Both the position numbers and the translations under genes were made by a program. The notes under the pieces are model-generated. The model was not told the origin of the DNA and did not search any database. It saw only the letters and a list, made by a program, of their open reading frames with translations. This document shows positions 15,696 to 49,128 of a stretch of DNA of 64,000 nt, in pieces (the first letter of the stretch is position 1; the number at the start of each line of letters is the position of its first letter). The stretch is from Bombiscardovia nodaiensis (GTDB lineage: Bacteria; Actinomycetota; Actinomycetes; Actinomycetales; Bifidobacteriaceae), in contig AP026798.1 of assembly GCA_033127725.1 (NCBI GenBank), positions 248,001 through 312,000 on the forward strand. Reading direction: 5' to 3'.

Positions 15696-18662
15696 CTACT
15701 TGCTCGCTGTTGCGTTCTGTGCGTGGCGGCCGGGGCGGTGTTTGCGCTTTGATAGTTTGACTCTGCCGTAGGTGGCTGTGGCCAGTGCGCTGGCTACTAG
15801 GAGCCCGCCGCCGCTCCATTGTTGGAGGGGGATGGCTCCAGCTTGAGGGAGGGTCATGATGGGGGCCCAGCGGGCGTAGAGGGTCATGTCAGCTGTGACA
15901 TCTTGGCTGAAATTCCACCGGGTGGGGCTGGTTGGCGAGGTGTACCAACCGGCGAATATTTTTCCTTCGTAGGTGGGCGGTGGCGCTGGCTCGGAGATTG
16001 GGCCAGCTGCTGAGATGGCTACGGTGGCGCTAGTGTGTAGGGTACCGCCTTGGGGGTCGAAGGTGACTACGAAACCTGGCACGCGCTGTGAGATGGTGCC
16101 GTTGAAGGGGCTGGGTTTGGTAGCGTTGGGTAAGTTGATGGTGCCTTTGAAGGCGTAGGTGTGGTCGCCGGGGTTGGAATGTGCCCAGGTGTAGGTGCCG
16201 TCGCTAGCGGTGTAAGAGCCGCCGGCTGGTTTGGACTCAATCTGAGTTCCATTTATGCTTTCAACCCAAGGCGTGGCAAATGTATCTGGGCTGTGGCTGA
16301 TGGTAGCCGGTCCGAGGGTGAGAGGCGATGGTGAGTAACCAGGAAGATCCGGTAAGCGTACTCGCTGATCCCTGATACACACTGCACTTTCTGAAATTGA
16401 ACACCCGCCATTCGCAAAAATGCCAGAGTTGGTGATACGGATGAAGAGATTCCAATTAACCGAACTCACATCTGTAATTTGATTATCTCGTAGATTTAGT
16501 GTTGTGAGCGTTGGGGCGATAGTTGTCCAGTTTACTGTGTCCAACCGTGTTATCTGGTTACTGTCTAACCGTAGTTCTTGAAGGTTAGTGAACGTGGCCC
16601 AACTGATACTAGATAGACTACTGCTAGTGAGTTTATTGTTCTGTAAGTATATCAACACGATGCTAGGGTCATTGAGCTGGCCGGGATTGGTGATGAGATT
16701 ATTTTCGGCTCTTATTGTATTGAGAGTATGTAATTGGTCGAGTGGGCTTAAATCCGAAATCTGATTATTGTCTAAATAGAGAGCTTGTAGTCTCGTGAGG
16801 GCGCTCCAGTTGACGCTGGCTATACTGGTAAGTTTATTACCGCGGTGCCTAGAGGAGGGAACGGGTGGGCCAAATATACTACCTCCATCGCCTAGGTACA
16901 GGCCACCGAGTTTGGGGTTGTTAAGCTGGCCTAGGGTTGAAATCAAATTACTGGTTGCATCTAGTTGGTAGAGAGTGGGAAGTCCTGTGACCGGGCTTAA
17001 ATCTGTTATATCATTATTATTAATCCAGAGTTTTTGCAATCCAGTGAGGGCGCTCCAGTTAACACTGGCTATGCTTGTGAGTTTATTGCCAACTATCCCA
17101 TTTTTTTGTGGGTAGTGCCAATTATCGTGGAATATTGTTCCAGCATTTGTTCCTAAGTCTAAGGCATTTAGGAGGGGGTTGTTGAGTTGGCCTGCGTTCG
17201 TTATCAGGTTATTGGAGGCATCTAGGTTATAAAGGCTATGAATAGGGTCAAGTGGACTTAAATCTGTGATTCGGTTATTGCATAGATCAAGTCTGGAGAT
17301 TCGTGTGGATGCACTCCAGTTAATACTAGCTATACTGGGTAACTCATTGTTGGCTAAAAATAATTCGTCAAGGTTGGGGTTGTTGAGTTGGCCTGCGTTT
17401 GTTATTAAGTTATTGGAGGCGTGAAGTCTAGATAATGTGTGAATGGGTTCGAGCGAGCTAAGGTCTGTGATTTGGTTATCATCCAAGTATAGGATCTGAA
17501 TTTTAGTATTTGTGCTCCAAGACACATTGGATGTGCTAGTCAGCTTATTGAATCTCAGATATAGCTCTATAAGATTCGGATCATCGAGTGTACCGAGATT
17601 GGTAATAGGATTGCAACATGCATCCAAAGATGTGAGACTGTGTATAGGGTTGAGCGGGCTTAAATCTGTAATCTGGTTGAACCTACCTGGACTTCCAAAA
17701 TCAGTTACTGTTTGATTATCGCCGAATTTGATAGTTGAAAGTTTGGTTAATCGGCTCCAGTTGACGTTAGATATACTCGTTATTTTGTTGTCGTGCAAGT
17801 CCAAATTGATAAGATTGGGATCATTCAGCTGACCAAGATTTGAAATTTGATTGCCGCTGGCACTTAACCCTGTAAGACTGTGCACAGGGTCGAGTGGGCT
17901 TAAATCTGTAATCTGATTGCTGCCCAGGTTGAGTTGTTGGAGTTTAGTAAGGTTGCTCCAAGCTATGCTAGACACGTTCATAAGGGTGCAGTCTTGCAGA
18001 GCCAGTTCTGTGAGGTTGGGGTTGCTGAGTGTGCCAAGTGAAACAATTGGATTACCGGATGCATACAGTATGCTGAGTTCGGGCATATTCGTGAGTGGGC
18101 TGAGATCTGTGATTTGGTTGCCATCTAGGGAGAGGTTTTTGAGTTTGGTGAAGTATTGCAGTCCCTCTACGCTGACAATATTTTTGCTTTTGAGGGCCTC
18201 ATCGTAATATCCGAATTTGGTGGTGGAGTTGATGATTGCGGTGGTGAGGGTATCAGACGGGGCTTTGCCGATGCTGGTGGCTACTGCGGAGGCGAGGTTG
18301 GAGTCGGGTAGACATTGGGCAATCGTGCTCACATCGATGGTGCAGCTGCCGCCGCGCGGGGTGAGCTTGGGCTGCGAGAGAGGCTGTGTTTTAGACTGAA
18401 CGCTGTTTTGCGCCTTGGGTTGAGGTGCTGGCGAGGCTTCGTGCTCAACCGGAGGAGTTGAAACCGAATTGTTGGGTTGTGTGCTGGGATCTTGCGGGAT
18501 TGGCTTGGGGGAGTTTGTACGGCTGTTTGCTGCGGTTTGTGCGCTGCTGGAGGTGGGATCTGCTTGAGCTGACCGGGCGGCAGCTAAGTTAGCGTGCCCC
18601 CCCCCCAGGACGGTCAAGGATAGTGCCAGCATGGCAGTACCGATAGTGTGCAACGTGCTCAT
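15696..18662 (-). CDS. LRR surface protein with poly-G signal-peptide tract (in frame)
   Basis: The protein has 988 residues. I chose the ATG at 18662 because GGAGGGG lies just upstream. The layout is: a signal peptide interrupted by three Gly codons made by a run of ten G; a Pro/Ser/Gln-rich linker; an internalin-like cap (CTIDVSTIAQCLPDSNLASA); and about seven long super-repeats of 65-70 residues. Each super-repeat is built from several leucine-rich repeats of the form ITDLSPLDPIHSL, ITNAGQLNNPNL and LTSIASVNWSAL. One Listeria-Bacteroides repeat follows (VTFDPQGG to LYARW). The C-terminus is LPQAG, a hydrophobic helix and a basic tail. It is predicted to be exported and fixed to the cell wall and to bind a ligand or host surface. 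Some LRRs are broken by Gly/Pro-rich insertions. Codon use in the repeats is more AT-rich than in neighbours. Confidence 0.9.
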   Translation of the reverse strand: MSTLHTIGTAMLALSLTVLGGGHANLAAARSAQADPTSSSAQTAANSRTNSPKPIPQDPSTQPNNSVSTPPVEHEASPAPQPKAQNSVQSKTQPLSQPKLTPRGGSCTIDVSTIAQCLPDSNLASAVATSIGKAPSDTLTTAIINSTTKFGYYDEALKSKNIVSVEGLQYFTKLKNLSLDGNQITDLSPLTNMPELSILYASGNPIVSLGTLSNPNLTELALQDCTLMNVSSIAWSNLTKLQQLNLGSNQITDLSPLDPVHSLTGLSASGNQISNLGQLNDPNLINLDLHDNKITSISNVNWSRLTKLSTIKFGDNQTVTDFGSPGRFNQITDLSPLNPIHSLTSLDACCNPITNLGTLDDPNLIELYLRFNKLTSTSNVSWSTNTKIQILYLDDNQITDLSSLEPIHTLSRLHASNNLITNAGQLNNPNLDELFLANNELPSIASINWSASTRISRLDLCNNRITDLSPLDPIHSLYNLDASNNLITNAGQLNNPLLNALDLGTNAGTIFHDNWHYPQKNGIVGNKLTSIASVNWSALTGLQKLWINNNDITDLSPVTGLPTLYQLDATSNLISTLGQLNNPKLGGLYLGDGGSIFGPPVPSSRHRGNKLTSIASVNWSALTRLQALYLDNNQISDLSPLDQLHTLNTIRAENNLITNPGQLNDPSIVLIYLQNNKLTSSSLSSISWATFTNLQELRLDSNQITRLDTVNWTTIAPTLTTLNLRDNQITDVSSVNWNLFIRITNSGIFANGGCSISESAVCIRDQRVRLPDLPGYSPSPLTLGPATISHSPDTFATPWVESINGTQIESKPAGGSYTASDGTYTWAHSNPGDHTYAFKGTINLPNATKPSPFNGTISQRVPGFVVTFDPQGGTLHTSATVAISAAGPISEPAPPPTYEGKIFAGWYTSPTSPTRWNFSQDVTADMTLYARWAPIMTLPQAGAIPLQQWSGGGLLVASALATATYGRVKLSKRKHRPGRHAQNATASK
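18597..18606 (-). repeat. G10 homopolymer tract in signal peptide (ON register)
   Basis: Ten consecutive C on the plus strand are ten G on the coding strand. They follow codons for Leu-Thr-Val-Leu and encode Gly-Gly-Gly. The reading frame continues intact into the LRR protein, so this copy is in the expressed register. Confidence 0.9.
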
Positions 18663-19016
18663 ATAACCCCTCCGCAAGGCCGATACGCGCTCGCTAGTGC
18701 TGGCCTATTCAAAGTTGATGTCCCGATGCTGCTGCCCGCGTACAAGCGAATGCCTGCTCAGGTTCCCCAACCCGCGCCAGCCCACAGCACATGTCTCAAT
18801 ACTCAACACTCTACCATCGTTTGTCGAATCAAGCGCTTTCCAATCTCCCACCTATGTATTTCACCTGCAAGCGTTGCCAAGCAACCTGAGTGAACGATCT
18901 ATCGGTCCTACGAAAAGTAGTACGAACTACACGCGATAAAAGCAAAAGATAACCCGATGAAGCTAAGTTGAGCAAACAGTAATTCATATTGTGATTATTC
19001 AACCAGCAACCGGTGG
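18663..19016 (-). promoter_or_regulatory. Upstream region of the LRR gene with GTTGGGGAA element
   Basis: About 350 bases hold no convincing gene. The element GTTGGGGAA (coding strand; TTCCCCAAC at 18763-18771) lies about 100 bases before the start. The same element occurs 74-90 bases before the two other poly-G genes at 35849-35857 and 49202-49210, so it is a candidate shared promoter or activator site. The leader ends in GGAGGGG, the same ribosome-binding site as at 35759. Confidence 0.5.
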
Positions 19017-19283
19017 TCAAGCCTGTAGGGCTCGGCTCAGGGTATCTCGTAGGAACTGTGAGCGGTTTTCTTTCTTTAATCTGGCCTTGTTATCTATGGT
19101 CTGCAGAAGGGATTGCGGAAGGCGCACTGAGATGGTCGTCAGGTCTTCGTCTGAAATGTGGGGGCGGCCGGCTCTGATTGGTCCTACAGTGCCTTTCCAA
19201 GTACCGGTCTCATACTCGGCTGCCATGCTGTCCAGCATCTGGTCGTCTACTGCGAAATAGCTGTTGATTTCCGTCTCTTTCAT
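19017..19283 (-). CDS. Ribbon-helix-helix (CopG-like) regulator or orphan antitoxin
   Basis: This 88-residue protein starts at the ATG at 19283, behind AAGGA with 7 bases spacing. The C-terminal half is a ribbon-helix-helix motif: TTISVRLPQSLLQTIDNKAR supplies the beta strand and first helix, and RSQFLRDTLSRAL the second. The acidic N-terminal half resembles actinobacterial orphan CopG-type proteins. No toxin gene is visible on either side, so it may act as a stand-alone DNA-binding regulator. It lies 147 bases downstream of the dehydrogenase gene on the same strand. Confidence 0.75.
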   Translation of the reverse strand: MKETEINSYFAVDDQMLDSMAAEYETGTWKGTVGPIRAGRPHISDEDLTTISVRLPQSLLQTIDNKARLKKENRSQFLRDTLSRALQA

Positions 19284-19430
19284 GGTCATTTCCTTGCGAT
19301 CCTGCTTTCGGCGTGGTGGCAGGGGCGTGGAGGCGCGGGCTCTGTGGTTGAAGGAGAAGTGGGCGGATGCGGGGCAGTGTTGGCTGTCGAGCATTCGCCC
19401 ACTTGGGAACTTACCTGGTAGGTGAGGCCC

Positions 19431-20501: not shown

Positions 20502-20676
20502 ATCGGCTCCCTTCCTTGGGGGTTCTGGTTGCTCGTGGGCAATGAGCGTCGGTGTGGGCGCTCTTGCTCGCGGCTTAGTTCTCAGTATAAGGCACTGCGG
20601 GCGGCGAACCGCGGGCGGGATTGCTCCGACGGATTGGAAAAGTGTGAGGAAAATAACTGTGAAAAATATCATATGA

Positions 20677-20705
20677 TTGACAGCTGGAAAACGGCGGAAT
20701 TGTAG
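20677..20705 (+). promoter_or_regulatory. Candidate promoter of the pyruvate oxidase gene
   Basis: A perfect -35 hexamer TTGACA (20677-20682) is followed after 17 bases by a weak -10, TTGTAG (20700-20705), about 75 bases before the start codon. Confidence 0.4.
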
Positions 20706-20778
20706 GACTTTTGAGGGATTTCGGTGCTATGGTAAAACGCGTTTGAAAGAAATTTATACCAATGAGGTTGATAGTACT

Positions 20779-22506
20779 ATGGCAAAAATCAATGCTGCCG
20801 ACAAGATGGTTCAGGTCATGCAGGCCTGGGGCATCGACAACGTGTACGGCCTGCCGGGCGACTCGGTTGACACCACCGTGGAAGCGCTCTACCGGGTGCG
20901 CGACAAGGTCAAGTTCACCCAGGTGCGGCACGAGGAAGTGGCGGCTCTGGCGGCGGCTGCGCAAGCGAAGCTGACCGGCAAGGTGGGCGTCTGCCTCTCC
21001 ATCGGCGGCCCCGGCGCCATCCACATGCTCAACGGCTTGTACGACGCGAAGATGGACCATGTGCCGGTCGTGGCGATTTTGGGCCAGATCCAGTCCCACC
21101 TGCTCAACACAGGCTACTTCCAAGAGGTGGACCTGCCCAAGCTGTGCGACGACGTGGCAGTTTACAACAAGCTGGTCACCAGCCCCGAGACCGTGCCCGC
21201 CGTGATGGACGAGGCTATTCGCATGGCCTACTTGCACCAGGGCGTGGCCGTGCTGACCATCCCCGACGACGTGCCCAACCACAAGATTGAGGACACCTTC
21301 CAGCCCACCGCAGACCTCTTCCACCAGTCTCACCCGGCTATCAATCCGGCCGACATTGACAAGGCCCTGCAGATGATTCACGCTGCCAAGAAGCCCGTTG
21401 CCTTCTTCGGCGTGGGTGCCAAGGGTGCGCAGGCTGAGGCCAAGGAGTTCGTGGAGCGCTACTCCCTGCCCTTCATTCAGACCATGCCTGCCAAGGGCAC
21501 GATTGACGACGACCACCCCAACGCCCTGGGCCAGGTGGGCAAGCTGGGCACCAAGCCCGCTTACGAGGCCATGTTCGACGCTGATCTGCTGATTTTGGTG
21601 GGCACCGACTACCCGTATGCGCCGTATTTGAACGGCAAGATTCCGGCCATCCAGATTGAGATTGAGCCGACCCGCATCGGCAAGCGCCACGCGGTCGAGG
21701 TTGGTATGGTGGCCGACGCGAAGGATGCACTGACCCTCCTCAACGCCCGTGGCGAGCAGATTGCGGAAACTGGCTGGCTCAAGGCTTGCCAGAAGAATAT
21801 GCAGACCTGGCGCAAGTGGATGAAGGACGTGACGGATAAGTCCCACAAGGGCGTGCTGCCCTCGCGCTCCTTCGCTAAGATGAGCGAAATTGCGCCCTCG
21901 AACGCGGTTTGGTCGGTAGATGTGGGCACGTCCACCTCCTTCGGTGCCCGCTTCCTGACAGCAAAAGCCACGCAAAAGTACATTATTTCTGCTTGGCTGG
22001 GAACCATGGGCTGCGCTCTGCCCGGTGCCATCGCGTCCAAGCGCGACATGCCCGATCGCCCGGTCTACGCGGTCTGCGGCGACGGCGCTTTCGCCATGGT
22101 CATGCAAGATTTTGTGACCGCAGTCAAGTATCAATTGCCGATGGTTGTTGTCATTTTGAACAACCACCTGCTCGCCTTCATCGAGTACGAGCAGCAGTCG
22201 GTGGGCCAGCAGAACTACGGCATTGACCTGGCCGACATTGACTTCGCCAAGTTCGCCGAGGCCTGCGGTGGCATTGGCGTGAACGTGACCACCGACGAGG
22301 AGTTCGACGCGGCTATCGAAAAGTACCAGAACCCCGACCGCCCGGTGATTATCAACTGCGCTTCCGCCGACGAAGCCCCCCTGCCCGGCAAAATCGTCTG
22401 GGACGAGGCTGAGGGCTACATGAAGTTCGGCGTGGGCTATATGAAGGAGCAGTTCCGCATCCCCGAGCTGCCGCCCCTGCGCGAGCTCATGCGCCAGTTC
22501 CTGTGA
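20779..22506 (+). CDS. spxB: Pyruvate oxidase (ThDP/FAD enzyme)
   Basis: This 575-residue enzyme converts pyruvate, phosphate and oxygen to acetyl phosphate, CO2 and H2O2. The N-terminal Pyr domain holds the cofactor-activating Glu in RHEEVAALAAAAQAKLTG. The middle domain binds FAD. The C-terminal PP domain has the ThDP-binding GDGAFAM to ILNN motif near residues 440-470. Alignment from memory with lactobacillus and streptococcal SpxB is strong over the full length, better than with acetolactate synthase. The ATG at 20779 follows GAGG at 11 bases. Most bifidobacteria make acetyl phosphate by phosphoketolase, so an oxygen-using route is notable. Confidence 0.9.
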   Translation: MAKINAADKMVQVMQAWGIDNVYGLPGDSVDTTVEALYRVRDKVKFTQVRHEEVAALAAAAQAKLTGKVGVCLSIGGPGAIHMLNGLYDAKMDHVPVVAILGQIQSHLLNTGYFQEVDLPKLCDDVAVYNKLVTSPETVPAVMDEAIRMAYLHQGVAVLTIPDDVPNHKIEDTFQPTADLFHQSHPAINPADIDKALQMIHAAKKPVAFFGVGAKGAQAEAKEFVERYSLPFIQTMPAKGTIDDDHPNALGQVGKLGTKPAYEAMFDADLLILVGTDYPYAPYLNGKIPAIQIEIEPTRIGKRHAVEVGMVADAKDALTLLNARGEQIAETGWLKACQKNMQTWRKWMKDVTDKSHKGVLPSRSFAKMSEIAPSNAVWSVDVGTSTSFGARFLTAKATQKYIISAWLGTMGCALPGAIASKRDMPDRPVYAVCGDGAFAMVMQDFVTAVKYQLPMVVVILNNHLLAFIEYEQQSVGQQNYGIDLADIDFAKFAEACGGIGVNVTTDEEFDAAIEKYQNPDRPVIINCASADEAPLPGKIVWDEAEGYMKFGVGYMKEQFRIPELPPLRELMRQFL

Positions 22507-22724: not shown

Positions 22725-22906
22725 GTTGCTTGATGCATGGTGGGCTCAAAGTACAATCCAATGTTCCACTTTTATGAAGCTTCGGGGCAGCGTAGAGGTA
22801 GGTCGGAGTTCCTGGTGGTAGTATTTCGATTAGGTTTTGGGGAGAGAGTAAGGGATTTGGGGATTTCTGCTCTCGATTTTGCGTGTTGTTGGGAGAGGTT
22901 AGACCA

Positions 22907-25900
22907 GTGCGGTCGTTGTTGGGGAAAGCCAGTCGTTGGTTGCCTCGTATGCTCGTAGGCGCTGTGGCAATACTAGTGTTTGTCACGTTCGCTGCTGCTG
23001 CGGCGCATGCCATAGTTGGCTCAGACACCACCAGCGGTGAAAGTGCTAAGACGGCTGTAAAGTCGGTAAACGGTGACGCGGCAAATGCAGCGCCCGGCAG
23101 TCCTCAGTCCTCAGCTTCAGCTCCGGCCGCGCAACCGAATGCCTCCCAGCCGAAAGTCGCTGATCCCAAGGCCTCCCAGCCCCAAGCTCCTCAATCCAAG
23201 ACCCCAGATTCCAAGGCTGCTCAGCCTGCCGACAAGGGCAAGCTCCAGCCCCGTAGTATGCCGGTCTGCCAGTGGACAGACAACTTTTACACTTGCTTCC
23301 CCGACACGAACATGGCCGAGGCCGTAGCGCGCGCCGTCGGCGCTTCAAGCGCGAATGACGTGTTCACTTCCTCCATGCGAGACACCACTTATCTAGTGAT
23401 AAATGGTGATAATATCGACGATATTTCTGGAATTCAGAATTTTCCGATGGCCTCTACTATCATCTTCAACGGCGATAACACGTTCACCAACCATTGGAAC
23501 GGCCTCCAACCCCTAGATAATATGCTCATGGTTACCCATTTTGGGCTGAATCATGGTACACACTATAGCGCTAGCATGATTCCCGATATTAAACGCTATA
23601 TCGCAAATCTTAACCAGCTGGACCTTACCTACGACGGTTATGGACAGTCGTCTGACGGCCCTGTCGGTGCGGCAAATATGCTGCAACAAATCAAATACAA
23701 CTTTTATAATCAAGATATTAGCCTGGATGTGAGCGGCAACCATCTGCCTTGGCTGGTAGATCTCGATGGGATGGCAGGGCTTCATCGGCTCGATGCTAGA
23801 GACCAGACGCTCGATTGGGGTGAATTCGACAGCTGGTCCCAAAAACCTAACAGTCCGTTTTCGCTAGGCGGAGCTCTCAATATAGACGGAACTCCAGTTC
23901 GCCAAGGCTCGGGTGGTTCTCCGTCGGGAGGCAGCTTCAACCCAGCAAGTGGTGCTTGGGTCTGGCCCACCACAGAAAAGGGTATGCACTCCTTCGATTT
24001 CTACGACTCTGGCACTTATAATGGAGCTTCCTATACTTTCTCTGGTACGTATAAGGAGAACATATCGCGCCCAGGCATTACGCTCTACGGCAATGGTGGT
24101 ACTCCAGCAGTTAATTCATACTGGGTATTGCCTGGATTCAGCCTCAGTATGCCGAGCGCCACTTGGGCTCACCATCGGCTGACTGGCTGGTATACTGCCG
24201 CCACCGGTGGCACTAAAGCGAACTTCCCTATAATTGTGCAAGACGCGAACATCACGCTCTGGGCTCACTGGGAGGAAGTTCCCAAAGTTACGGTCACCTT
24301 CGACTCGCAAGGCGGCTCAGCTGTTCCGCCTGCCGATGTCTACCCGGGCGACCCGGTGGGCCAGCCCACCAACCCCACCAAAGGCATGTCGATTTTCCAA
24401 GGCTGGTACACGCAGGCCGGCAGCAAGTGGACCTTCACTTCGCCTGTCCCCGGAGCCATGACCCTCTACGCCCACTGGACAGACCCGGTCACGGTCACCT
24501 TTGACCCCAACGGTGGCATAAACGGCCCTCCCGGCCAGCAAGTGATGCCAGGGCAGAAGGCCAATGCGCCCGGCATCACTCCCACCAAAGGCGATTCCCG
24601 CTTTGACGGCTGGTTTACCGCGCCCAGCGGCGGCCGGCAGTGGGTCTTCACCTCCGACACAGTCTCCTCCAACACCACCCTCTACGCGCATTGGACCGAC
24701 CGGGTGGTGGTGACGTTCGACACCCAGGGCGGCAGCGCGGTTCCTTCGCAGCGGTTGCTCCCGGGCAGCGCAGTGACCCAGCCTGGCACAAATCCCACCA
24801 AGGGCGATTCTCGCTTCGATGGCTGGTTCACGGCTGCGATCGGCGGCCGCCAGTGGGCTTTTGCCTCCGACACCGTGAGCTCAAACACCACCATTTACGC
24901 GCATTGGACCGATCGCTACAACGTCACGTTTGACGCCAACGGCGGCACTGGCGCGCCAGGTGTGCAGCGCTTGCTCTCGGGCAGCCACGCCACCGACCCA
25001 GGCGTGACCCCCACCAAGGGCGATTCCCGCTTCGATGGCTGGTTTACGGCTGCGTCTGGCGGCAGGAAATGGGATTTCCCTAACGACACGGTCAACGCGG
25101 ATATGACCCTGTACGCCCAATGGACTGAGCGTGTTGATGTTCGTTTTGACGCGAATGGCGGTTCTCCTGCCCCTGTGGCCCAGCGCGTGCTCATCGGCGA
25201 CCACGCCAACCAGCCCGGTTTCTCGCCCAGCAAGGACCATGCGCGTTTTGATGGCTGGTTTACAGCTGCTTCTGGCGGCAGAAAATGGGATTTCCCCAAC
25301 GACACGGTCAGCACCAGTATGACCCTGTACGCCCAATGGACTTCCTACACCGTCACCTTCGACCCCCGCAACGGGCAGGCGACCAGCAGCGTCCCAGCAG
25401 CCCCAGGCGAGCGAATCACCGCGCCCACAGACCCGGCCAAGGGCGATTCCCGTTTTGACGGCTGGTTCACCGGCAGCGATAGCAAGTGGAACTTCGTCTC
25501 CGACACGGTCAGCGGCGATATGACCCTGCACGCTAAGTGGACCGACCGCGTAACCGTGTCGTTCGACACCAACGGCGGAGCTGAGACCTACCCCGACCAG
25601 CGTGTGCTCATAGGAGACACAGCCACCCGGCCCACCAATCCCACCTGGGCAGACCACTCCTACGCCGGCTGGTTCACCAGCAATGACGAACCCTGGGACT
25701 TCCTGCGCCCGGTCAGTGCGAGCATGACCCTTAAAGCTAAGTGGGACACCTTCAAGTTCACCATCGACCCGGCTAAAGGCCCGAAAGCTGGCGGCACGTC
25801 AGTCACCATCAGCCCGGTGCAGCAGTCGAGTGTGAAGTTTACGCAGGTATCGGGCGGTGCGGCCTTCAGCGTGGCCCTTGGCTCGGAAGGCTTCTTGTAC

Positions 25901-28858
25901 GCCTGGGGCGATAACGGCTACGGTCAGCTCGGCAACACGAGTAGGTACTCTAGCACTGTACCGGTGCGTGTCAGCACTGCGCCGGGCATCACCATCGTAA
26001 CTATGGCTGCTGGTCCGAACCATGTAATTGCCATTGGCTCAGACGGTAACGCATACGCCTGGGGCATGAACTGGGGCCAGCTCGGCGACGGTACTTCTTC
26101 TGACAAGACGAGACCTGTCATCTTCCAGCTGCCTACAGGCGTGCGCGCGCTGAAGGTGTCTGCCGGAGCCCGGCATTCGCTGGTTGTGGGCGATGATGGC
26201 AAGGTGTACGTGGCTGGGTTCAACAACCGCCACCAAATTAACAGCGACACTAACCTGGGCATCCACAGCACACCCCTTGCCGTGAGTGCGCCCGGCGGCC
26301 GTCGATTCGTCGATGTTGCTGCAGGCGACTACTATTCTCTGGCCCTGGCTGACGACGGTACAGCCTGGGCTTGGGGTTCCAACGATGACAACCAGCTCGG
26401 CTTCACCGGCAGCAACAACGGCACGCCTCAAGCCGTGACCATGCCAGGCGGCATACAATTCAAGAAAATTGCCGCTGGCAGCAACTTCTCAGCCGCCATT
26501 GACAGTGTTGGTGACGTTTACACCTGGGGCGCAGGTAGTTCAGGCCAGCTGGGCAATGGGATGAACTCCACTGTGAGCGTGCCCACACACATGAGCCTGC
26601 CCACCACCAGCGAAGCCGTGCAAATCGTGGCTTCCGGCAGCCACATACTCGCCCTGACCGCCAGCGCCCAGGCCTATGCTTGGGGCAGCAACACGAACGG
26701 TGAGCTGGGCAACAATACCACGGCCGCCTCCAACGTTCCTGTCGTCGTTGGTCTACCCGGAAACGCTCTGCCCGCTGGCATGGGTGCCGGTGGTACGCAC
26801 AGCCTAGCCGTGAGCCGCAAGGGCGATATGTACGCCTGGGGCGCCAATGCGAAGGGCCAGTTGGGCGACGGCAGCACCGCAGAGCAGCACGTACCCCAGG
26901 CTGGTAAGCTGATTACCATCGATCCAGAAATTGTCAACTTTGACAACGCAGTCACCCCAGGAACCACGAATATCGCTACTGGCGTTTGGACGGGCAACAC
27001 GCTCACCCACCCGGCCGGAGAGATAACCGTTTCTGTCACCTGGAAGCTCGCTGGTGTCTGGCAAAATGACGCCCATTTGCGCTATCGCTACTTGGATGAG
27101 TATGTGATCCACTTTGACTTGGGCGGAGCTCCCGGCACAGCGCCCGCAGATCAAAATTACGACGAGGAAACAAACCAGCACGCCACCTGGCCGACGGTGC
27201 CCATCCGGGCTGGCTACGAGTTTGCCGGCTGGTTCACCCCCCAAGGCCAACCCTTCAACTTCGACCAACCCGTGCATGCCAGCGCGAACCTGACCGCCCA
27301 TTGGGATAGGTCCACGTTCGCGCTCACCCCAGATGCGGGCATTATTTCGGGCGGCACGCACCTGACCTTGAGTGGCCCGGGAGACCCAGGCTTCCGCTTC
27401 ACGCAGGTCACCGGTGGCAATCAATTCAGTGTGGGCCTCGGCTCGAATGGGCTGATTTATGCCTGGGGCGACAACAGTGTCGGCCAGCTCGGAGACGAAA
27501 CCAATACGTCGAGCCGCAAGCCGGTGCGGGTTCACACTCCCGCCGGCGTGACCTTTACCAGTATCTCCTCGTACAGCTACTACACTATGGCGGTCGGCTC
27601 CGACGGAAAAGCGTATGTCTGGGGCTCCAACGTTGGAATGGGTATCGGCTTTAGCACGTCCAGCAATAAGCCTGTGCCCTACCAAACTCCCGCTGGTGTG
27701 CGCATCGTGCAAGTTTCTGCCGGGTATATGCACAGTTACGCCCTGAGCGACGATGGAAGAATATTCGCAGCAGGTGCCAACTACTACGGAGAAGTGGCGA
27801 ACGATACCAATGTCAGGACGTACTACACGCCAATAGCTGTGCAGTTGCCCGCCGGCAAGACCTTTATTCGTGTTTCCACAGGTAAATATTACGGACTCGC
27901 CCTCGCCAGCGATGGCACCATCTACTCCTGGGGCTATGGCGTAAACGGTCAGCTGGGCAATGGTACTACTGCCTCCAGTGCGACTCTGCTGCCAGTTACC
28001 ATGCCTGCAGGAGTGAGTTTTGCCGTCATTAAAGCGGGCGCAACGTACGCTGCCGCTATCTCCACCACCGGCGACGTGTACACCTGGGGCCTGAATACGG
28101 ACGGCCAGTTGGGCAACGGCACTACTGCCCAGGTGCTCACACCGACTCAGATCAGCTTGCCCGGTGGAGCGAAGGCGATCGAAATAGGCACCGGCGTAAC
28201 GTATTCGTACTCCAGAGCCTTTACGAGTGCTTTGACCACCACTGGCGACATCTATGCATGGGGCGACAACAGCTTTGGGGAGCTGGGCAATGGCACGCTG
28301 AGCAACAGTCTGAGCCCCGCCTTAGTGAGTGCGCCCGTCGGTGTGAGCTTTGCCAGCGTGAGTGAAGGCGGGGGCTACACGCTTGCTGCTAGTGCTGCTG
28401 GTGATGTCTACGCTTGGGGCAGCAACTCAGACGGTCAGCTCGGCAACGGAAACACCTTGCAGAGCAACCTGCCAGTGGCTGTGACCAAGCTCACCAACAC
28501 CGTGACCAAGCTCGACCTCGGCGACGCTACCACTACCGGTCTCACCCCAGCGGGCACCGGGGTCTGGCATGCGGACAGTGCTCCCCATAGCGACGGGCGA
28601 GTGGACGTCATCATCCACTGGAACCACGCTGGCAGCGAAGAGACCTACACCATCACCAGAGGCTACGATTACTACACCTTTGCCAACCTGGTGAAAGCCG
28701 GTACCACGCCAATCGACCGCTACACGGGCGGGCTGCTCTTGGCCGGGAGCACGGTTTTGGGACTCGCCTTCGTTGGCTACGAGGTGGTTAAGAACCGGCG
28801 CGGACAGGAAGAGCGCCCGCTGCTGACGCTGGCAGGCCGCGGCAGGCACCGCGCCTAA
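22907..28858 (+). CDS. Giant surface protein: nine Listeria-Bacteroides repeats and two RCC1 propellers
   Basis: The protein has about 1983 residues. I favour the GTG at 22907 (AGAGG 8 bases upstream); a GTG at 22883 is also in frame. A signal peptide ends near AAAAAHAIVG. Next come an Ala/Pro/Gln/Lys-rich linker, a cap with CFPDTNMAEAVARAVGAS, and a degenerate LRR-like region. Eight Listeria-Bacteroides repeats of about 70 residues follow (VTFDxxGG to GWFTA to LYAHWTD). The rest is a seven-blade RCC1 propeller (AWGDNGYGQLG), a ninth Listeria-Bacteroides repeat and a second seven-blade RCC1 propeller. The C-terminus is LVKAGTTPIDRYTGG, a hydrophobic helix and a basic tail. It is predicted to be exported and sorted to the wall. 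It has no poly-G tract. The ligand is unknown. Confidence 0.9.
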   Translation: MRSLLGKASRWLPRMLVGAVAILVFVTFAAAAAHAIVGSDTTSGESAKTAVKSVNGDAANAAPGSPQSSASAPAAQPNASQPKVADPKASQPQAPQSKTPDSKAAQPADKGKLQPRSMPVCQWTDNFYTCFPDTNMAEAVARAVGASSANDVFTSSMRDTTYLVINGDNIDDISGIQNFPMASTIIFNGDNTFTNHWNGLQPLDNMLMVTHFGLNHGTHYSASMIPDIKRYIANLNQLDLTYDGYGQSSDGPVGAANMLQQIKYNFYNQDISLDVSGNHLPWLVDLDGMAGLHRLDARDQTLDWGEFDSWSQKPNSPFSLGGALNIDGTPVRQGSGGSPSGGSFNPASGAWVWPTTEKGMHSFDFYDSGTYNGASYTFSGTYKENISRPGITLYGNGGTPAVNSYWVLPGFSLSMPSATWAHHRLTGWYTAATGGTKANFPIIVQDANITLWAHWEEVPKVTVTFDSQGGSAVPPADVYPGDPVGQPTNPTKGMSIFQGWYTQAGSKWTFTSPVPGAMTLYAHWTDPVTVTFDPNGGINGPPGQQVMPGQKANAPGITPTKGDSRFDGWFTAPSGGRQWVFTSDTVSSNTTLYAHWTDRVVVTFDTQGGSAVPSQRLLPGSAVTQPGTNPTKGDSRFDGWFTAAIGGRQWAFASDTVSSNTTIYAHWTDRYNVTFDANGGTGAPGVQRLLSGSHATDPGVTPTKGDSRFDGWFTAASGGRKWDFPNDTVNADMTLYAQWTERVDVRFDANGGSPAPVAQRVLIGDHANQPGFSPSKDHARFDGWFTAASGGRKWDFPNDTVSTSMTLYAQWTSYTVTFDPRNGQATSSVPAAPGERITAPTDPAKGDSRFDGWFTGSDSKWNFVSDTVSGDMTLHAKWTDRVTVSFDTNGGAETYPDQRVLIGDTATRPTNPTWADHSYAGWFTSNDEPWDFLRPVSASMTLKAKWDTFKFTIDPAKGPKAGGTSVTISPVQQSSVKFTQVSGGAAFSVALGSEGFLYAWGDNGYGQLGNTSRYSSTVPVRVSTAPGITIVTMAAGPNHVIAIGSDGNAYAWGMNWGQLGDGTSSDKTRPVIFQLPTGVRALKVSAGARHSLVVGDDGKVYVAGFNNRHQINSDTNLGIHSTPLAVSAPGGRRFVDVAAGDYYSLALADDGTAWAWGSNDDNQLGFTGSNNGTPQAVTMPGGIQFKKIAAGSNFSAAIDSVGDVYTWGAGSSGQLGNGMNSTVSVPTHMSLPTTSEAVQIVASGSHILALTASAQAYAWGSNTNGELGNNTTAASNVPVVVGLPGNALPAGMGAGGTHSLAVSRKGDMYAWGANAKGQLGDGSTAEQHVPQAGKLITIDPEIVNFDNAVTPGTTNIATGVWTGNTLTHPAGEITVSVTWKLAGVWQNDAHLRYRYLDEYVIHFDLGGAPGTAPADQNYDEETNQHATWPTVPIRAGYEFAGWFTPQGQPFNFDQPVHASANLTAHWDRSTFALTPDAGIISGGTHLTLSGPGDPGFRFTQVTGGNQFSVGLGSNGLIYAWGDNSVGQLGDETNTSSRKPVRVHTPAGVTFTSISSYSYYTMAVGSDGKAYVWGSNVGMGIGFSTSSNKPVPYQTPAGVRIVQVSAGYMHSYALSDDGRIFAAGANYYGEVANDTNVRTYYTPIAVQLPAGKTFIRVSTGKYYGLALASDGTIYSWGYGVNGQLGNGTTASSATLLPVTMPAGVSFAVIKAGATYAAAISTTGDVYTWGLNTDGQLGNGTTAQVLTPTQISLPGGAKAIEIGTGVTYSYSRAFTSALTTTGDIYAWGDNSFGELGNGTLSNSLSPALVSAPVGVSFASVSEGGGYTLAASAAGDVYAWGSNSDGQLGNGNTLQSNLPVAVTKLTNTVTKLDLGDATTTGLTPAGTGVWHADSAPHSDGRVDVIIHWNHAGSEETYTITRGYDYYTFANLVKAGTTPIDRYTGGLLLAGSTVLGLAFVGYEVVKNRRGQEERPLLTLAGRGRHRA

Positions 28859-32244: not shown

Positions 32245-35200
32245 TTAATTTTGGGCTTGTACGTGATTAGGGCGGAGGGAGTGCTTGCCCTGGTTGCGTT
32301 TGCGGGCCCTCGATAGTTGGTGGCCTGTTAAAGATACTGCCGTGATGGCGGTCAGGGCTATAAACGTAGCGCCGCTGTAGCGTTGGAGGGGTATGGTTCC
32401 GGCGGCGGGGAGGTTCCATTGGTAGTCGTAGGGGAGGGGGTAGTCGGGTTGGGCTACTCCGTCTAGGGTCCAGTGGATGTTGGTGGTGATTCGGCCGGGG
32501 TTGTGGGCTGGGGCGGTGACTTTCCACTTTTTGAGGGTGGGGTCCCAGACGGGTGCTGGTGTGGCTTCGGTTTGGTCGAACTTGATGCCGGTGACGAGGA
32601 TTTCTTGTAAGCCCACTAGGACGGGTTCATTTTTGTCGAGGATAGTGCCGTCGCCGAGGAGTCCGCTGTCGTTCCAGCCCCAGGAGTAGGTGTGGTGGTC
32701 GGTGCCGAAAGCGAGGTTGTGCCAAGGGCCTGCGCATATGGTGGTGAAGCGTCCGGTGGCTTGGAGGGCTCCGCTGTGGGTGAGGACAGGTTCTTTTCTG
32801 TCTACGCCGGTGCCGTCGCCGAGTTGATCGTACAGGTTCCAGCCCCAGGAATAGGTTCTGCCGTCGGATCCGATAGCGATATTGTGTGCGGCGCCTGCGC
32901 TGATGGTGACAAAGTGTTCGCTGACGGGGAGGGCACCATGGTGAACTTGCACTGGTTCAGGCCTATTGAAGTTGGTGCCGTCGCCGAGTTGACCCATGTT
33001 GCTTGTTCCCCAGCTGTATGTTTGGCCGTCTGAGCCGAGGGCTAGGGAGTGGTAGCTGCCTGCGCTGATGGTGGTGAAGTGTTCGCTGGCGGGCAGAGCT
33101 CCATTGTGGACGAGTACGGGCTCGCTCTGGTCGGCAGTGGAGCCGGTGGGGAAGTTGTTGATTGCGTCACCACCACCTTGAATGCCATTGCCGAGCTGGC
33201 CGCTACCGTTGTATCCCCAGGAGTAGATTTTGTGGTCGCTGCCTAGGGCGAGGGAGTGCCAGCGGCCAGCGCTGATGGAGGTGAAGTGTTCGCTGGCTGG
33301 TAGGGCTCCGTTGTGGACGAGGACAGGTTCGATTTTGTCGGCGGTGGCGTGGATGGGGGTACCGTCCGCCTGATGGGCTCCACTACTGGTGGTGCCGTCG
33401 CCGAGTTGGCCCATGTTGTTTAAGCCCCAGGAGTACATCTTGTTGTCTGAGCCGAGGGCGAGGGAGTGGTAGAAGCCTGCGCTAATCGCGGTGAAGCGTT
33501 GGCCCGCTGGGAGGGCTCCATGGTGGGTGGCGACGGGTTCTTTCTTGTTGGTGGTTGTGCCGTCTCCCAGTTGCCCGTATTGGTTGTAGCCCCAGGCGTA
33601 GATGTTGCCGTCGTCGCCGAGGGCTAGAGCATGGTAGCAGCCTGCGCTGATCGCGGTGAAATGTACGCCGGTCGGGGTGTGTACTCGTACCGGCAGTTTG
33701 CGGCTTGTGGTGGTGTTGTCGCCGAGTTGCCCATACTGGTTGTTGCCCCAGGCGTAGGTGTTACCATCTGAGCCGATGGCGAGACTGAGGTAGCCTCCGG
33801 CGCTGACCTGCTGGTAGACGATGCCTTGAGGCGGTTTGGGTGGGGTGATGTTGACGGTGTTACCACCGGTGGTGGGGCCGACGGCTGGGTCGATAGTGAA
33901 GGACCATGCTTCCCATTTGGCAGTTAGGGTCATGCTGCTGGTGACGGGTTTGGTGAAGTCCCAGTAGTCAGTACCGTTAGTAGTCCAACCCGTGAACCAG
34001 TGATGCTCCCAAACGGGGGTTGGGTTGGGGAATTTAATGGGCTGCGGGTCATCAGAGTACACGATTTGAGAGGCCGGTGTGGGGCTACTCGTGTTACCGA
34101 TGGCATCGCCGAGACTAAAGTCGACTTTGTAGAAGGCTTTGTAGGTGTAGTGGAGTGTGACGGTGTCGCTTCCGTAGTTGGGTAGGAGGATGTTGCCGTT
34201 GTCGTCGAGAGCGTCGAGGTGATAGCCGACGGTGACTGTCACCGCTCCTGCGGGGTGTTGTGGGACGTGCATGTCCCAAGTGCCGGTGCTGGTGTTCACG
34301 GTTTTCTGGGTAACGGCCGTGGTGTCGAATTTCACCGTGTCGATCACGTACCGGGGTACGGCAACTGGACCGGGACTGTCACGCTCAATATAGTTAGTAT
34401 TTCCAAGGTTGGAGACACCATTGAGTCCCCAGCTATAGGCATACCCGTTGCTGCCGATGGCGAGACTGAAGCCTTCTCCTGCGCTGATGCTGGTGTAACG
34501 GTTAGTGTTGCCTAACGCTGTTTGATCGGTGCGTACAGGGGCCAACCGTAAGTTCCCATTGGTGCCATCGCCGACTGAGCCGTAGCTATTGTCTCCCCAG
34601 GCGTAGATATGACCGTCACTGCCTATGGCGAGACTGTGGTTTGTGCCTGCGGCGACGCTGGTGTAGGTGGCTCCTGGTGTGCTGTTCAACATGGTCTGAT
34701 CCACACGAACGGGTGTATGCTGGTCAGCGAATGTACCGTCCCCCAGTCTGCCGTTACCGCTTTGTCCCCAGGCGTAGGCGTGGCCGTCACTGCCGGTAGC
34801 GAGACTGAATCCGTTTCCTGCGCTGATACTGGTGTACCGTGCCCCAGGCGTGGTGTTCAGCAGGGTTTGATCCACTCGTACTGGCGTGTTCTGGTTGCCA
34901 GATACGCTGCCGTCACCGAGTTGCCCCCACGAATTGTCTCCCCAGGCGTAGGCGTGGCCGTCGCTACCGAGGGCAAGACTATGAATTCGGCCTGCGCTGA
35001 TACTGATGTACCGTGCCCCAGGTGTGCTGTCCAGTAGGGTTTGATTCACTCGCGCCGGAGTTAACTTTATCCCGTAATCGCCTAGGCCGATACCGAGTTC
35101 TCCCCACGTATTGTCTCCCCAGGCGTAGGCGTGGCCGTCACTGCCTATGGCGAGACTGGAATTGTTTGCTGCGCTGATACTGGTGTAGCGTGCTCCAGGT

Positions 35201-35759
35201 GTGCTGTCCAGTAGGGTTTGATTCACTCGCACTGGCACAGACTGGTTGGTTTGGCTACCGTAGCCGAGGTAAGGGCCTGCTCCCCACGCGTAAGCGTGCC
35301 CATCATCGCCGATAGCGAGACTATGATATAGTCCTGCGCTGACTTGGGTGAAATGCACTCCAGTAGGAGTATGAACACGAGTTGGTGCGCTTGCACCGTT
35401 AACGGCACCAATGCCAAGATCACCATACCAGTCTTTACCCCATGAATAGGTGTTACCATCTGAACCTATAGCGAGACTATGCATAATACCTGCGCTGACC
35501 TGTGTGAAGTGTACGCCAGCTGGTGGGGCTGGGGGCGTGAGAGTTGCGGTCGCGTCCTGATTAGCGGGGCCTTTGGTGGGGGAGAGAGTGAAACCGTCTA
35601 CGGTTTCCGAGCTGTTGTTGCCGTCGCGTAGGAGAGGGTTTGTGTTGTCTTGTGGGGCTGGGTTAGCGTGGGTGGGGCTGGCTAGAGCGATTCCCCCCCC
35701 CCTAGGACTGTGAGCGCTAACGCGAGCACAACCGCGCTTGCAGAGCGAAAACGACGCAT
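32245..35759 (-). CDS. Phase-variable RCC1 surface protein, OFF register here
   Basis: The ATG at 35759 follows GGAGGGG and starts a signal peptide (MRRFRSASAVVLALALTVLG). The coding strand then has ten G, and the frame stops after 25 codons. With eight or eleven G the frame runs unbroken to 32245, giving about 1171 residues. The layout is then: short linker; seven-blade RCC1 propeller; one Listeria-Bacteroides-like repeat (YKVDFSLG to LTAKWEA); second seven-blade RCC1 propeller; and LPAAGTIPLQRYSG, a hydrophobic helix and a basic tail. The first propeller blade begins upstream of the internal Met at 35484, so that Met is not a real start. I read this as an intact contingency gene caught in the OFF state; a sequencing miscount of the tract is the main alternative. 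Confidence 0.85.
35693..35702 (-). repeat. G10 homopolymer tract in signal peptide (OFF register)
   Basis: Ten G on the coding strand after Thr-Val-Leu. In the present register the next codons are Glu-Ser-Leu-stop. Adding one G or removing two joins the signal peptide to the full RCC1 protein. An upstream inverted repeat (GCGGGTT/AACCCGC, about 35773-35808) lies in the leader, and TTCCCCAAC is at 35849-35857. Confidence 0.88.
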
Positions 35760-35993
35760 AACCCCTCCAAGCGGGTTCTGGTGGCGCTAAAAACGCTCAA
35801 CCCGCGAAAAAATCGAAAACATAGCTACAGAGCGAGCCTGGCGCGCAATTCCCCAACCGCGCACACAATGGCAATGCCTACTATTTCCTTATGATACCAG
35901 CCCGCCCCGGGTCCGTCATCCCAGTAAGCACAACCCTGTAGTCCGCTCCTGTATGATTCAAGACCGACTTCAAGGCTCACAAAACCCGGAGTT

Positions 35994-42948: not shown

Positions 42949-42983
42949 AAACGGTGCAGCAGAGAGGAGCTCGATAATTCAAT

Positions 42984-43012
42984 TTGTTAGTTTTTAGAAA
43001 AGCGATGATATT
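42984..43012 (+). promoter_or_regulatory. Candidate promoter of the CGTase-like gene
   Basis: TTGTTA (42984-42989) and GATATT (43007-43012) are spaced 17 bases apart, 34 bases before the start codon, in an AT-rich stretch. The amylase gene may therefore be transcribed on its own as well as from the malEFG promoter. Confidence 0.4.
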
Positions 43013-43045
43013 GCTGAAATTCACAATGTTGTGGAGATGAAAATA

Positions 43046-45283: not shown

Positions 45284-45329
45284 GCTGACCTGCTACGGTT
45301 TTGATTTCATACTCTACTAATTCAACAAA

Positions 45330-45364
45330 GAGGGTATCCATTTGAGTGATCAATGGATACCCTC
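45330..45364. terminator. 13-bp hairpin behind the CGTase-like gene
   Basis: GAGGGTATCCATT (45330-45342) and AATGGATACCCTC (45352-45364) are perfect reverse complements around 9 bases. No T-run follows on the plus strand, while the minus strand continues with TTTGTTGAATT. It is probably a weak terminator, possibly for both directions. Confidence 0.5.
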
Positions 45365-45408
45365 GGCTCGTGGTAAGAGCAGCTGTTTCAGTAAGACAAA
45401 GGAGGTGC

Positions 45409-45546
45409 ATGATGGTTACAGCTACTGTTGAATTTCTGCAAGATAAGAACTCTACGAGGTTTGATTTTAGGCGTGGAGCCGGCATGTCGATCGTGAAGCT
45501 GAGCGCTTGGAGCGGGATCTACGCGCATATCTTCGGCAGGGGATAA
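45409..45546 (+). CDS. Small open frame of 45 residues behind a strong ribosome-binding site
   Basis: AAAGGAGGTG (45398-45407) stands directly before ATGATG. The frame encodes a 45-residue peptide with TATVEFLQDKNSTRFDFRRG and a basic, aromatic C-terminus. I do not recognise it. From about 45493 another frame reads as ERLERDLRAYLRQGIKENMR up to a stop near 45600, which looks coding-like, so the region may be a decayed larger gene with a frameshift. Confidence 0.3.
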   Translation: MMVTATVEFLQDKNSTRFDFRRGAGMSIVKLSAWSGIYAHIFGRG

Positions 45547-45684
45547 AAGAAAATATGCGGGAATCGTTGCCGCGTTTTCTGCGGTTCTTGGCCTTCTAAC
45601 CAGGACAGGTGACTTCCGGGCTGCGGATTGTGCTTGCAGTGGCAAGTTGGAGTTTGATGGCTGGCTTGGGCGCGCGCGGAGGGT

Positions 45685-45870
45685 TTAGCTTTGGGGTTGG
45701 GTTTGATTTGGGCGGAGTGAGTGCTTGCCTTGCTTGCGTTTGCGGGCCTGCGATAGTTGGTGGCCTGCGAGAGTTACTGCCGTGATGGCGGTGAGGGCGA
45801 TGAAGGTTGCTCCGCTGTAGCGTTGGAGGGGTATGGTTCCGGCGGCGGGGAGGTTCCATTGGTAGTCGTA
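45685..45870 (-). pseudogene. Detached C-terminal cassette of an RCC1 surface protein
   Basis: The minus strand encodes 61 residues starting YDYQWNLPAAGTIPLQRYSG and continuing with the membrane helix and basic tail to a stop. It is nearly identical in DNA and protein to the end of the surface gene at 32245-32430. It has no start or upstream domain and lies 14 bases beyond the stop of the next RCC1 gene. It is either a leftover of a lost paralog or a donor for recombination. Confidence 0.85.
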
Positions 45871-45883
45871 TGTGGCTCAATTC

Positions 45884-48800
45884 TTAATTACTATGCTCAC
45901 TAAGGATTTGAGCTGAGTGGCAGCCTTTGCCCTGCTTGCGCTTTTGGTTATACCCGTGACCGGCATAGACTACGGCTGCTAATCCGATAAGAAGTAAAAG
46001 TGTGCTTCCGGTGAGACGGTGGAGAGGGATAGTTCCAGCTTTCGGAATGTTGAGCAGCGTGTAATACAAGAAGCCGTTATGAATAGTGTAGTCAGGCTGT
46101 TGAGAGTCATTCATTTTCCAGGAAATTACAACATCAACTTGTTGATCCGGTGAGTGTACAGGCGTTTGGACATTCCATGTTCCTGTTGCATTATCAAAAA
46201 CTGGTGAACTTGCAGAGCTTCCAGCAAAGGTTACTTGGGTTATAACAATCGAAGGTGGCACGCCAATCTTTACTGGAGTGCGCTCTTCATCACCAGCGTT
46301 TCCGCCTTTGCCGTTTCCGAGCTGATTGAGATTATTACTTCCCCATGCCCAGAGTTGCCCAACAGTATCTATTGCTAAGGTATGTTTTTCTCCGGCAGAG
46401 AATGAAGTGAACGTTGTGCCTGGTACAGGATCGACAAGTGTTGGGCTCCATAGGTATCGATCATTGCTATCGCTCAGCTGATGATTTGTGTTATTGCCCC
46501 AGGCATATACGCGATGGTCGCTACTGATAGCGATTGCATCGTAAGGACCTAGGAACACTTGGTCAAAAGTAATAGAGCTGTTGAGATTAACTGCTATTGG
46601 GAAATTCTTATCAACGTTACTGTTGCTACCCAGCTCGCCATCTCCACTTCGCCCCCAGGTATAAAGATGCCCGTCGTTCGAGAGCCCCATCGAGCGGCTA
46701 CCTTTTGCGCCGATTTGTTTGAAAGCGGCTACTGGCATCTGCACAGGTACGGGAGTGGCGCTCATAGAAGAATATGAAGTTGGAACACTGGTATTTCCGA
46801 GTTGCCCGTAACGGTTTAACCCCCAGGAGTACGCTTTGCCGAAGCGGTCAAGACCAACGCAGTAGTCATTTCCTGCACTGACTTGGGTGTATGCACTCAC
46901 GCCAGAAGGAAGTTGAACTTGTGTAGGTGTTAAACGTTCAGTAGTATCTCCAGTTCCGAGTTGTCCGTGCTCGTTGTTGCCCCAAGCATAGGTTTTCCCG
47001 TCGTCTGCAATGGCAACTGTATGTGTATCACCGGGCGACACTTGTATGTACTTAGTGGCTCCGGCTGGGGGAGTAATAAGTGTAGGTGTGAGTCGATTTG
47101 TTTTGTCGCCTAAGCCTAATTGTCCACTATTGTTTGTTCCCCATCCGTAAAGACTACCATCGCTGGCAAAAGCGAATGAGTTATTGGTTCCGGCTATTAC
47201 CTTAACGAAAGTGACGCCAGGAGCTGTTTTTATTAGAACTGGGCTATTTCTGTTAATTACAGAGTTGTCTCCAAGTTTGCCAAAGATATTATTTCCCCAA
47301 GCATATGCTTTATTGTCAGAACCGATAGCCAATGAGTGGTTGGATCCAGCACTTACTTGAGCAAGATGAATCCCCGTTAGGGCTGGATCTGCAGAAATGT
47401 CAACCTTTGTGTTGCCTTGAACCGGACCCGAGTTGGGCTTTATGGTAAAGCGTATTTCATCCCATTTTGCGGTAAGTTGTACAGTTTCATTTACAGCCGT
47501 GTCAAAATTCCACGGACTACCTTGGTTGGTAAACCATCCGTCGAAAACATGTCCGGGCCACTGGGGTTCGGGCTGTGGACGTTGGGCTTTTCTGCCTATT
47601 AAAATTCGTTGACTTGGAGGTGTAACACCCGGTGCGCCGTTTAAATCAAAACTGACAACAAAGGAAGCCCAGAATGTGTATTTGAAAGTAATTGGGCTCA
47701 TTGTTTTTCCGTTTAATGTCCACAATACTTTGGCATCGACAGTTCCTCCTGGGTGGGCCGGCGTGCTTACATGCCATTGAGTGGCACTATCGCGTGTTAA
47801 ATTCTTACCGTTATAATCAAAAGTTACGCCAGTGACGTTGATGACGCCCATTTCAACTTTGCCCGGTAGATTTGCTGGTGATAATGTGGTTCCGCGCCCG
47901 AGGGCATCTCCTCCTGATCCCCAAGAGTATGCCGTTCCATCTGAGAGAAGAGCTAATGAGTTACCAGCTGCCTGGCTATAACCGGCTGCGCTGATACTGG
48001 TAAACACCTTGTCGGTTTGGACAAGGGCGGGCACCACATTTTTAGATGACGAAGTTCCAAAAGCGTATCCCCAAGCGTACGTTTTTCCATTTTCGCCTAT
48101 TGCCATAGAGCTATATAAACCAGCGCTAATAGCTGTGAATTTTACTGAAGATATTACCGTGCTTGGACTACTGACCATATTTTGATGGCCGACACCTGAT
48201 TCGCCGAAATTATTTGCGCCCCATGAAAAAGCGCGCCCATCTTCGGTTAAAGCGAGAGTATGCATAGCTGAAGCACTGAGATCTATTATTTTTCTGGCAC
48301 TTCTCAATACCACTGCTGGTCTGTGGGCGCCAAAATCGCCCCAAACATCTGACCCATTCCCTAATTGGTCTTGACCGTTGTAGCCCCAAGTGATGATGCT
48401 CCCATCTGCTGTTGCAGCGACTCCGTGAGATTGCCCTGCAGCCACAAGCACTGCGTTACTGGTGATGCTCCGGGGGTTGTACTGGTATCCTCCACGTATG
48501 CCATCTCCTAGTTGCCCGCTAGAATCGCTACCCCAGCCGTATACGACTCCACTGTCGCTAATGGCTAGCGAGAAAGCGTAGCCTGCACTTATTTTGGTAA
48601 ACTTTACACTTGTTGATACTGGGGTTAAGGTGGGATTTGCTGTGGTGGTGCCAGCGTTGGTACTGTAACCGAGCTGCCCAGTTTGGTTGGATCCCCATGA
48701 GTAGACTTTTCCGTCTTCGCCAATTGCAAGTGCATGGTTAGTTCCAGCGCTAATTTGTGTGAATTTAACGGGGGCAACGATTTTCATAGGTGCAGGAAAG

Positions 48801-49128
48801 CTGGAGACAAGAGTATTGCCGAGTATGCCATATTTATTTGTTCCCCATGCATAAATGTTGCCATCTGTGGCGAGACCAAGGGCGAATTGATCTCCTGCGC
48901 TAATCTGCTTGAATTTCAAATCTTCTGGTGTTGCCGGAACGGTTACAGTGACAGTGTCATTGCCTTCCTGGGGCCCTTCGTTGGGGGTGAACGTGAATCC
49001 GAGAGTGTTTGGATCTGTAATTTGGTCAGCGTGCGAGAGAGTGGGCCTGATTACAGTGCAGGCCCCCCCCCCAGGACCAAAAATGCGAAAACGAGCGCTA
49101 GCACGTTAACATTACGGAAACGACGCAT
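45884..49128 (-). CDS. Second phase-variable RCC1 surface protein, OFF register here
   Basis: The ATG at 49128 follows AGGGG and begins a signal peptide (MRRFRNVNVLALVFAFLVLG). Ten G then lead to Pro-Ala-Leu-stop, 25 codons in all. With eight or eleven G the frame runs to 45884, giving about 1081 residues. The layout is a linker, a seven-blade RCC1 propeller, a Listeria-Bacteroides-like repeat (FVVSFDLNGAPG to LTAKWDE) and a second seven-blade RCC1 propeller. The C-terminus is IPKAGTIPLHRLTG, a hydrophobic helix and a basic tail. The gene is noticeably AT-rich compared with the similar gene at 32245-35759 and shares little DNA identity with it apart from the two ends. It lies downstream of the tRNA-Ala gene on the same strand. 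Confidence 0.85.
49063..49072 (-). repeat. G10 homopolymer tract in signal peptide (OFF register)
   Basis: Ten G on the coding strand complete the Leu codon and give three Gly codons, then the frame stops. The same +1 or -2 change as in the gene at 35759 restores the full protein. TTCCCCAAC lies upstream at 49202-49210. Confidence 0.88.

Follow-up and report, generated by a model that had tools for sequence, protein, structure and literature searches.

Described systems closest to the poly-G family

ON/OFF slippage at G-tracts within sortase-pilus genes has been shown in Bifidobacterium breve UCC2003, and tracts of 8-13 have been listed for further species in the same kind of gene (Penno et al. 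2022, PMC9187656; this and the other papers given by PMC number are cited from excerpts of their text). The present work concerns a family of genes for surface proteins in which some ten consecutive G occupy signal-peptide codons, three of which genes lie on the minus strand of the window, a stretch of 64,000 nucleotides that corresponds to bases 248001-312000 of contig 1 of the 2.29 Mb genome of Bombiscardovia nodaiensis (labelled G000). The original prediction for this stretch held that no such system had been described in bifidobacteria, a statement that cannot be upheld in view of the B. breve pilus switch published in 2022 (PMC9187656). Indeed the two resemble each other in that some 8-13 G near the 5' end part the frame of the Sec signal from that of the body carrying the sorting signal, and in that an in-frame length joins both, but there the pilus operons concerned number one or two and come with a dedicated sortase, whereas here 27 RCC1 or leucine-rich repeat (LRR) genes are dispersed round the chromosome. 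None of the window genes heads a pilus cluster that includes a sortase gene of its own, as the nine sortase matches of the genome include none in or near the window, the nearest on either side lying below 117 kb and beyond 1.72 Mb.

Gardnerella, a member of the same bacterial family, is a further point of comparison. Many G/C tracts of at least 8 have been reported there, some in surface-protein genes and one of variable length, but the proteins are unlike those described here and most of the tracts are placed upstream of the reading frame (PMC11287997).

With respect to the proteins themselves, the closest counterparts seem to be in Bifidobacterium asteroides and other bee bifidobacteria, where exported RCC1 proteins likewise form numerous paralogues, usually equipped with Listeria-Bacteroides repeats and, at the C-terminus, with a tail for sorting to the cell wall (PMC3447821, PMC4449606). 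Their tails read LPxTG, however, whereas those of the present family read LPxAG, and five of the 27 genes have LRR bodies instead. In the excerpts of these two papers, homopolymers, poly-G, frameshift and phase variation are not mentioned for the bee RCC1 proteins.

The contingency loci of Campylobacter and Neisseria, as far as excerpted accounts of them go, likewise have intragenic G/C runs, frame-based ON/OFF states and many loci per genome, but those loci are non-homologous, whereas here mainly one paralogous family is involved and the position of the run within the signal peptide is conserved. In the literature searched, in which subscription journals were mostly outside coverage, switching of the bifidobacterial or bee-gut RCC1 family was not reported. 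Poly-G switching of so large a family of this type appears undescribed, while the principle itself is known, and what is new lies in the protein family and its scale, in a second site, with G11, in other members of the genus, in poly-C mirror genes and in a shared hairpin-like leader.

G runs in the signal-peptide codons of 27 genes

The best explanation of the family is in our judgement slipped-strand phase variation of wall-anchored surface proteins, a reading that we hold with considerable confidence. In the window exactly ten G are found at the corresponding place in the signal-peptide codons of three minus-strand genes, just as originally predicted, and it is equally correct that one gene is in frame while the other two are out by an equal amount and end after 25 codons (products of 988, 25 and 25 residues). 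The description of all three as exported repeat proteins has to be made more precise, the repeats being leucine-rich in gene 1 and of the RCC1 propeller type in genes 2 and 3. Gene 1 (15696..18662, ATG at 18662, run at 18597..18606) is in frame as assembled and encodes an LRR surface protein with a Listeria-Bacteroides repeat, which ends in LPQAG, a hydrophobic stretch and a basic tail. Gene 2 (32245..35759, ATG at 35759, run at 35693..35702) and gene 3 (45884..49128, ATG at 49128, run at 49063..49072) encode RCC1-repeat surface proteins and are out of frame as assembled with an identical offset, and beyond the 25-residue first-frame product 1148 and 1058 codons, respectively, remain open. Both thus have a signal peptide 5' of the run and a sorting-type tail (LPAAG in gene 2, IPKAG in gene 3) 3' of it, in different frames. 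A scan of genome contigs with the portion of gene 2 that lies 3' of the run gave a single relative, which is in a Desulfobacterales MAG. The Listeria-Bacteroides repeat is matched by gene 3 but, at E 0.001, not by gene 2.

Inspection of all 53 runs of at least G8 in the genome (two G8, seven G9, 38 G10, two G11, three G12 and one G13) gives 27 genes of one layout, in which an ATG and a basic start (e.g. MRRFR) are followed by a hydrophobic stretch, by the run 53-64 nt after the ATG, which encodes Leu-Gly-Gly-Gly, and by an open frame of 586-1148 codons. A tract at 21441 that had passed the filter lacks this layout and was dropped, and 17 of the 44 runs of at least G10 fall outside it, four of these being C10 on the opposite coding strand. 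Taken alone the statistics of the window are weak, since its six G9 words, against a mean of 1.28, were reached in 2 of 100 dinucleotide shuffles. Genome-wide the excess of long G runs over chance is nonetheless strong: a 200-kb sample of the genome holds a single G run above length six, and the 44 runs of at least G10 compare with about 1.4 extrapolated from that sample. A homopolymer of at least eight in the 5' coding region beyond chance, as is characteristic of slipped-strand loci, is accordingly present in 27 genes.

The bodies of these genes match RCC1 in 21 cases (Pfam), including genes 2 and 3, which is the repeat of the bee bifidobacterial proteins, and LRR families in five, and 21 of the 27 match the Listeria-Bacteroides repeat. 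By manual count 24 of the 27 have, within their last 55 residues, a hydrophobic stretch and a basic tail together with [LIM]PxAG, a motif that departs from strict LPxTG, and wall anchoring of the family proteins seems likely from these sequence features.

As regards the frame, 20 of the genes are in (all G10) and seven are out (six G10 and one G11), and translation in a wrong frame meets a stop within a median of 3 codons (at most 31; n=54), so that the length of the run decides between a full-length and a truncated product, again in the manner of slipped-strand loci. Ordinary decay, by which the out-of-frame genes would be pseudogenes of a redundant family, could account for the additional damage seen in some members, such as the gene at 1625702, which is split again after 586 codons, and for the short downstream frames (e.g. 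138 and 218 codons) of several members in the same-genus genome G007. The break does however sit at the run, and six of the seven out-of-frame B. nodaiensis genes keep 864-1148 open codons past it, and decay is in our opinion the most improbable of the alternatives.

The protein itself furthermore has no need of the run, since paralogues without one use mixed codons at the same place (GGA GGT GGA for the glycines of LGGG in L097, with LGGE in L101 and LGAG in L098), and GGG makes up 309 of the 3192 glycine codons in the family bodies. It should also be mentioned that MutS has no match in this genome while it is matched in 11 of 14 control genomes.

We therefore envisage that each of the 27 genes would encode an exported, probably sortase-anchored protein with an RCC1 propeller or LRR repeats, whose signal peptide holds a run of about ten G specifying Leu-Gly-Gly-Gly, and that slippage during replication in living cells would add or remove one G, presumably in a reversible manner. 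At an in-frame length the signal peptide would be joined to the body and the protein could be exported and displayed on the surface, whereas at other lengths translation would stop soon after the run and no surface protein would result. Since each gene has its own run, the genes should switch independently and a clone should become a mixture of surface coats, which may be of benefit in the host gut.

Run lengths in related genomes and rival explanations

In the congener G007, inspection of its 79 runs with a length of exactly nine, ten or eleven G gives 40 such genes, of which nine are in frame (eight G10, one G11) and 31 are out (all G11); an automatic match at 346908 was dropped for want of the common layout. 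Length differs between close copies here, as slipped-strand loci would have it: the in-frame B. nodaiensis gene at 68483 and the out-of-frame G007 gene at 461214 share 89 of 90 flanking bases and differ by one G, and within G007 the genes at 797104 (in) and 807785 (out) share 83 of 90 and likewise differ by one G.

Across both genomes the in-frame length is 1 modulo 3 in 55 of 67 genes, a conservation whose binomial probability overstates independence because the genes are paralogues. It does nevertheless bear on the notion that RNA polymerase or the ribosome slips on G10, so that every allele would give some full-length protein and expression would be graded with no inherited switch. Transcriptional slippage on long G runs is possible in principle, but a device at the RNA level would not require the in-frame DNA length to be conserved. 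In B. breve, moreover, it is slippage at the DNA level that is the demonstrated mechanism (PMC9187656, in the excerpt used), and we consider slippage at the RNA level very unlikely, if slightly less so than decay.

The comparison of tract lengths across related genomes, which had been proposed as a check, shows that lengths do differ, with G10 and G11 in G007 and homologous runs of G11-G13 in G023 and G006, of which 2 of 6 and 2 of 5, respectively, are in frame. A fixed length of ten was therefore rejected as a rule. RCC1 matches occur in 22 of the 27 genomes of the genus, and the search for the motif in other genomes, carried out as TCCT followed by at least nine G, was positive in 10 of 149 including the genome itself (24 hits in G007, 23 in G000, six in G023, five in G006, three in G021 and one each in five others). 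Among the loci examined outside G000 and G007, the common layout is present at those of G023 and G006 and absent from those of G021 and the single-hit genomes.

In RCC1-type genes of G024, G003, G014 and G013 a run is instead found just past the signal-peptide region, e.g. ILT-G11-RQTPRVA, with a variant form in G022 and G026. The length at this second site (L107-L115, L117 and L118 in these six genomes) is G11 at 15 loci and G13 at one, in G013, and G11 reads in frame, as judged by eye at a few loci; these loci were picked for runs near RCC1 matches and so do not constitute a survey.

Several points weigh against phase variation. Lengths are uniform within each assembly, G10 in 26 of 27 genes in B. 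nodaiensis and G11 in 32 of 40 in G007, which is unfavourable because loci that slipped freely, fast and independently of one another would be expected to differ more, and the length comparisons are among paralogues and between species. The argument from mixed codons is partly circular, as the 27 genes were found by their runs, and a gene for NucS, a protein that deals poorly with small insertions and deletions, is present in the genome. The same uniformity, offset by one between the two assemblies, would fit a systematic one-base bias in sequencing or assembly, in which case true lengths would differ from the consensus, the out-of-frame genes would partly or all be in frame and the runs might be stable; annotated G-tract lengths can indeed differ from measured ones, to judge from the excerpt of Penno et al. 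(PMC9187656). Several lengths were however called in both assemblies (G8-G13 in G000, G9-G11 in G007), G007 has G10 and G11 in near-identical genes, and the runs, their position and the wrong-frame stops do not depend on exact length. Such error seems unlikely, although it is the most serious of the alternatives considered.

The proposal that phase variation operates at the level of the signal peptide is thus strengthened by the size of the family, the one-G differences, the conserved in-frame length, the wrong-frame stops, the tails in 24 of 27 genes and the lack of a MutS match, while the switching itself is something that we infer. Frame switching on such a scale is best known from mucosal pathogens, and 27-40 such genes within a single surface-protein family of presumed commensals make its purpose testable, be it attachment, phage avoidance or host relations. 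The near-identical runs in one genome furthermore offer a natural set for relating slippage to length and strand, and a warning is also warranted, since genome annotation will present genes of this kind as broken or without a signal peptide.

Leader element, poly-C genes and replication strand

A leader element, TTGGGGAA, with hairpin-like arms precedes all three window genes on the minus strand, at 18743..18790 (108 nt ahead of the gene 1 start codon), 35829..35876 (97 nt before gene 2) and 49182..49229 (81 nt before gene 3). TTGGGG is found 68-124 nt before the start codon of 27 of 27 family genes and TTGGGGAA before 24 of 27, against 7 occurrences in the 200 kb baseline, both strands counted, and the element also stands 5' of several run-free paralogues. 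In a hairpin model with the loop GGGG the share of pairing cells is 81.5%, covariation scores 0.355 compared with 0.214 (standard deviation 0.031) in shuffled and at most 0.146 in slid alignments, and four of five hairpin measures beat shuffles. Pairs changed on both sides, on the other hand, are no more frequent than in shuffles (166 of 500 reach the count), RNAalifold gave no consensus structure for the element, an Rfam scan of five sources matched nothing but a tRNA, and TTGGGGAA was not found in the examined loci of G024, G003, G014, G022 and G026. The leader is hence put forward as a candidate regulatory hairpin that may be common to the switched genes and several unswitched paralogues.

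On the other coding strand, the four C10 runs mentioned above fall within a stretch resembling a signal peptide (VTPPP or MTPPP) or directly behind it, at 1541839, 1728654, 1932317 and 2078892 of contig 1 (L026, L032, L038 and L040), the first being in frame and the other three out. Two of the four have a sortase match some 7 kb away (at 1721330 and 1924978), an arrangement reminiscent of published pilus loci.

A wider reading, for and against which we see about equal grounds, is that this clade evolved a combinatorial surface coat, in which dozens of RCC1 and LRR proteins would each have their own homopolymer switch at or near the export signal and share a leader-RNA hairpin, so that one clone could present very many coats. 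The switches would then have arisen by several routes, namely as poly-G inside the signal peptide, as poly-C at the signal peptide of genes on the opposite replication strand, and as G11 just past the signal-peptide region in other congeners.

All 27 B. nodaiensis and all 40 G007 switch genes lie on one replication strand, head-on to replication, which is the lagging strand if replication begins at base 1, where a dnaA-like gene was recognised by eye; of the baseline open reading frames 46 of 137 are lagging. The sign of the GC skew of B. nodaiensis switches between 1.14 and 1.20 Mb, 3 of the 20 windows sampled having the opposite sign, and the terminus of G007 was assumed at half the genome length. 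This bias was set aside as evidence for switching, because by manual reading about 13 of the 16 RCC1 genes that lack a run in the common layout are on the lagging strand as well.

Between the switched genes of the window lies an unswitched relative on the plus strand (22883..28858, 1991 codons, start codon uncertain), an RCC1-type surface protein gene which has no G run. Elsewhere in B. nodaiensis, runs of G12, G13 and G10 occur in regions without long frames (L021; 1241191, 1243751 and 1245936 of contig 1), as does a G11 in G007 (L133), and the runs of both loci adjoin repeated sequence reading like GTGCGAAAGTGCCCAAAAT.

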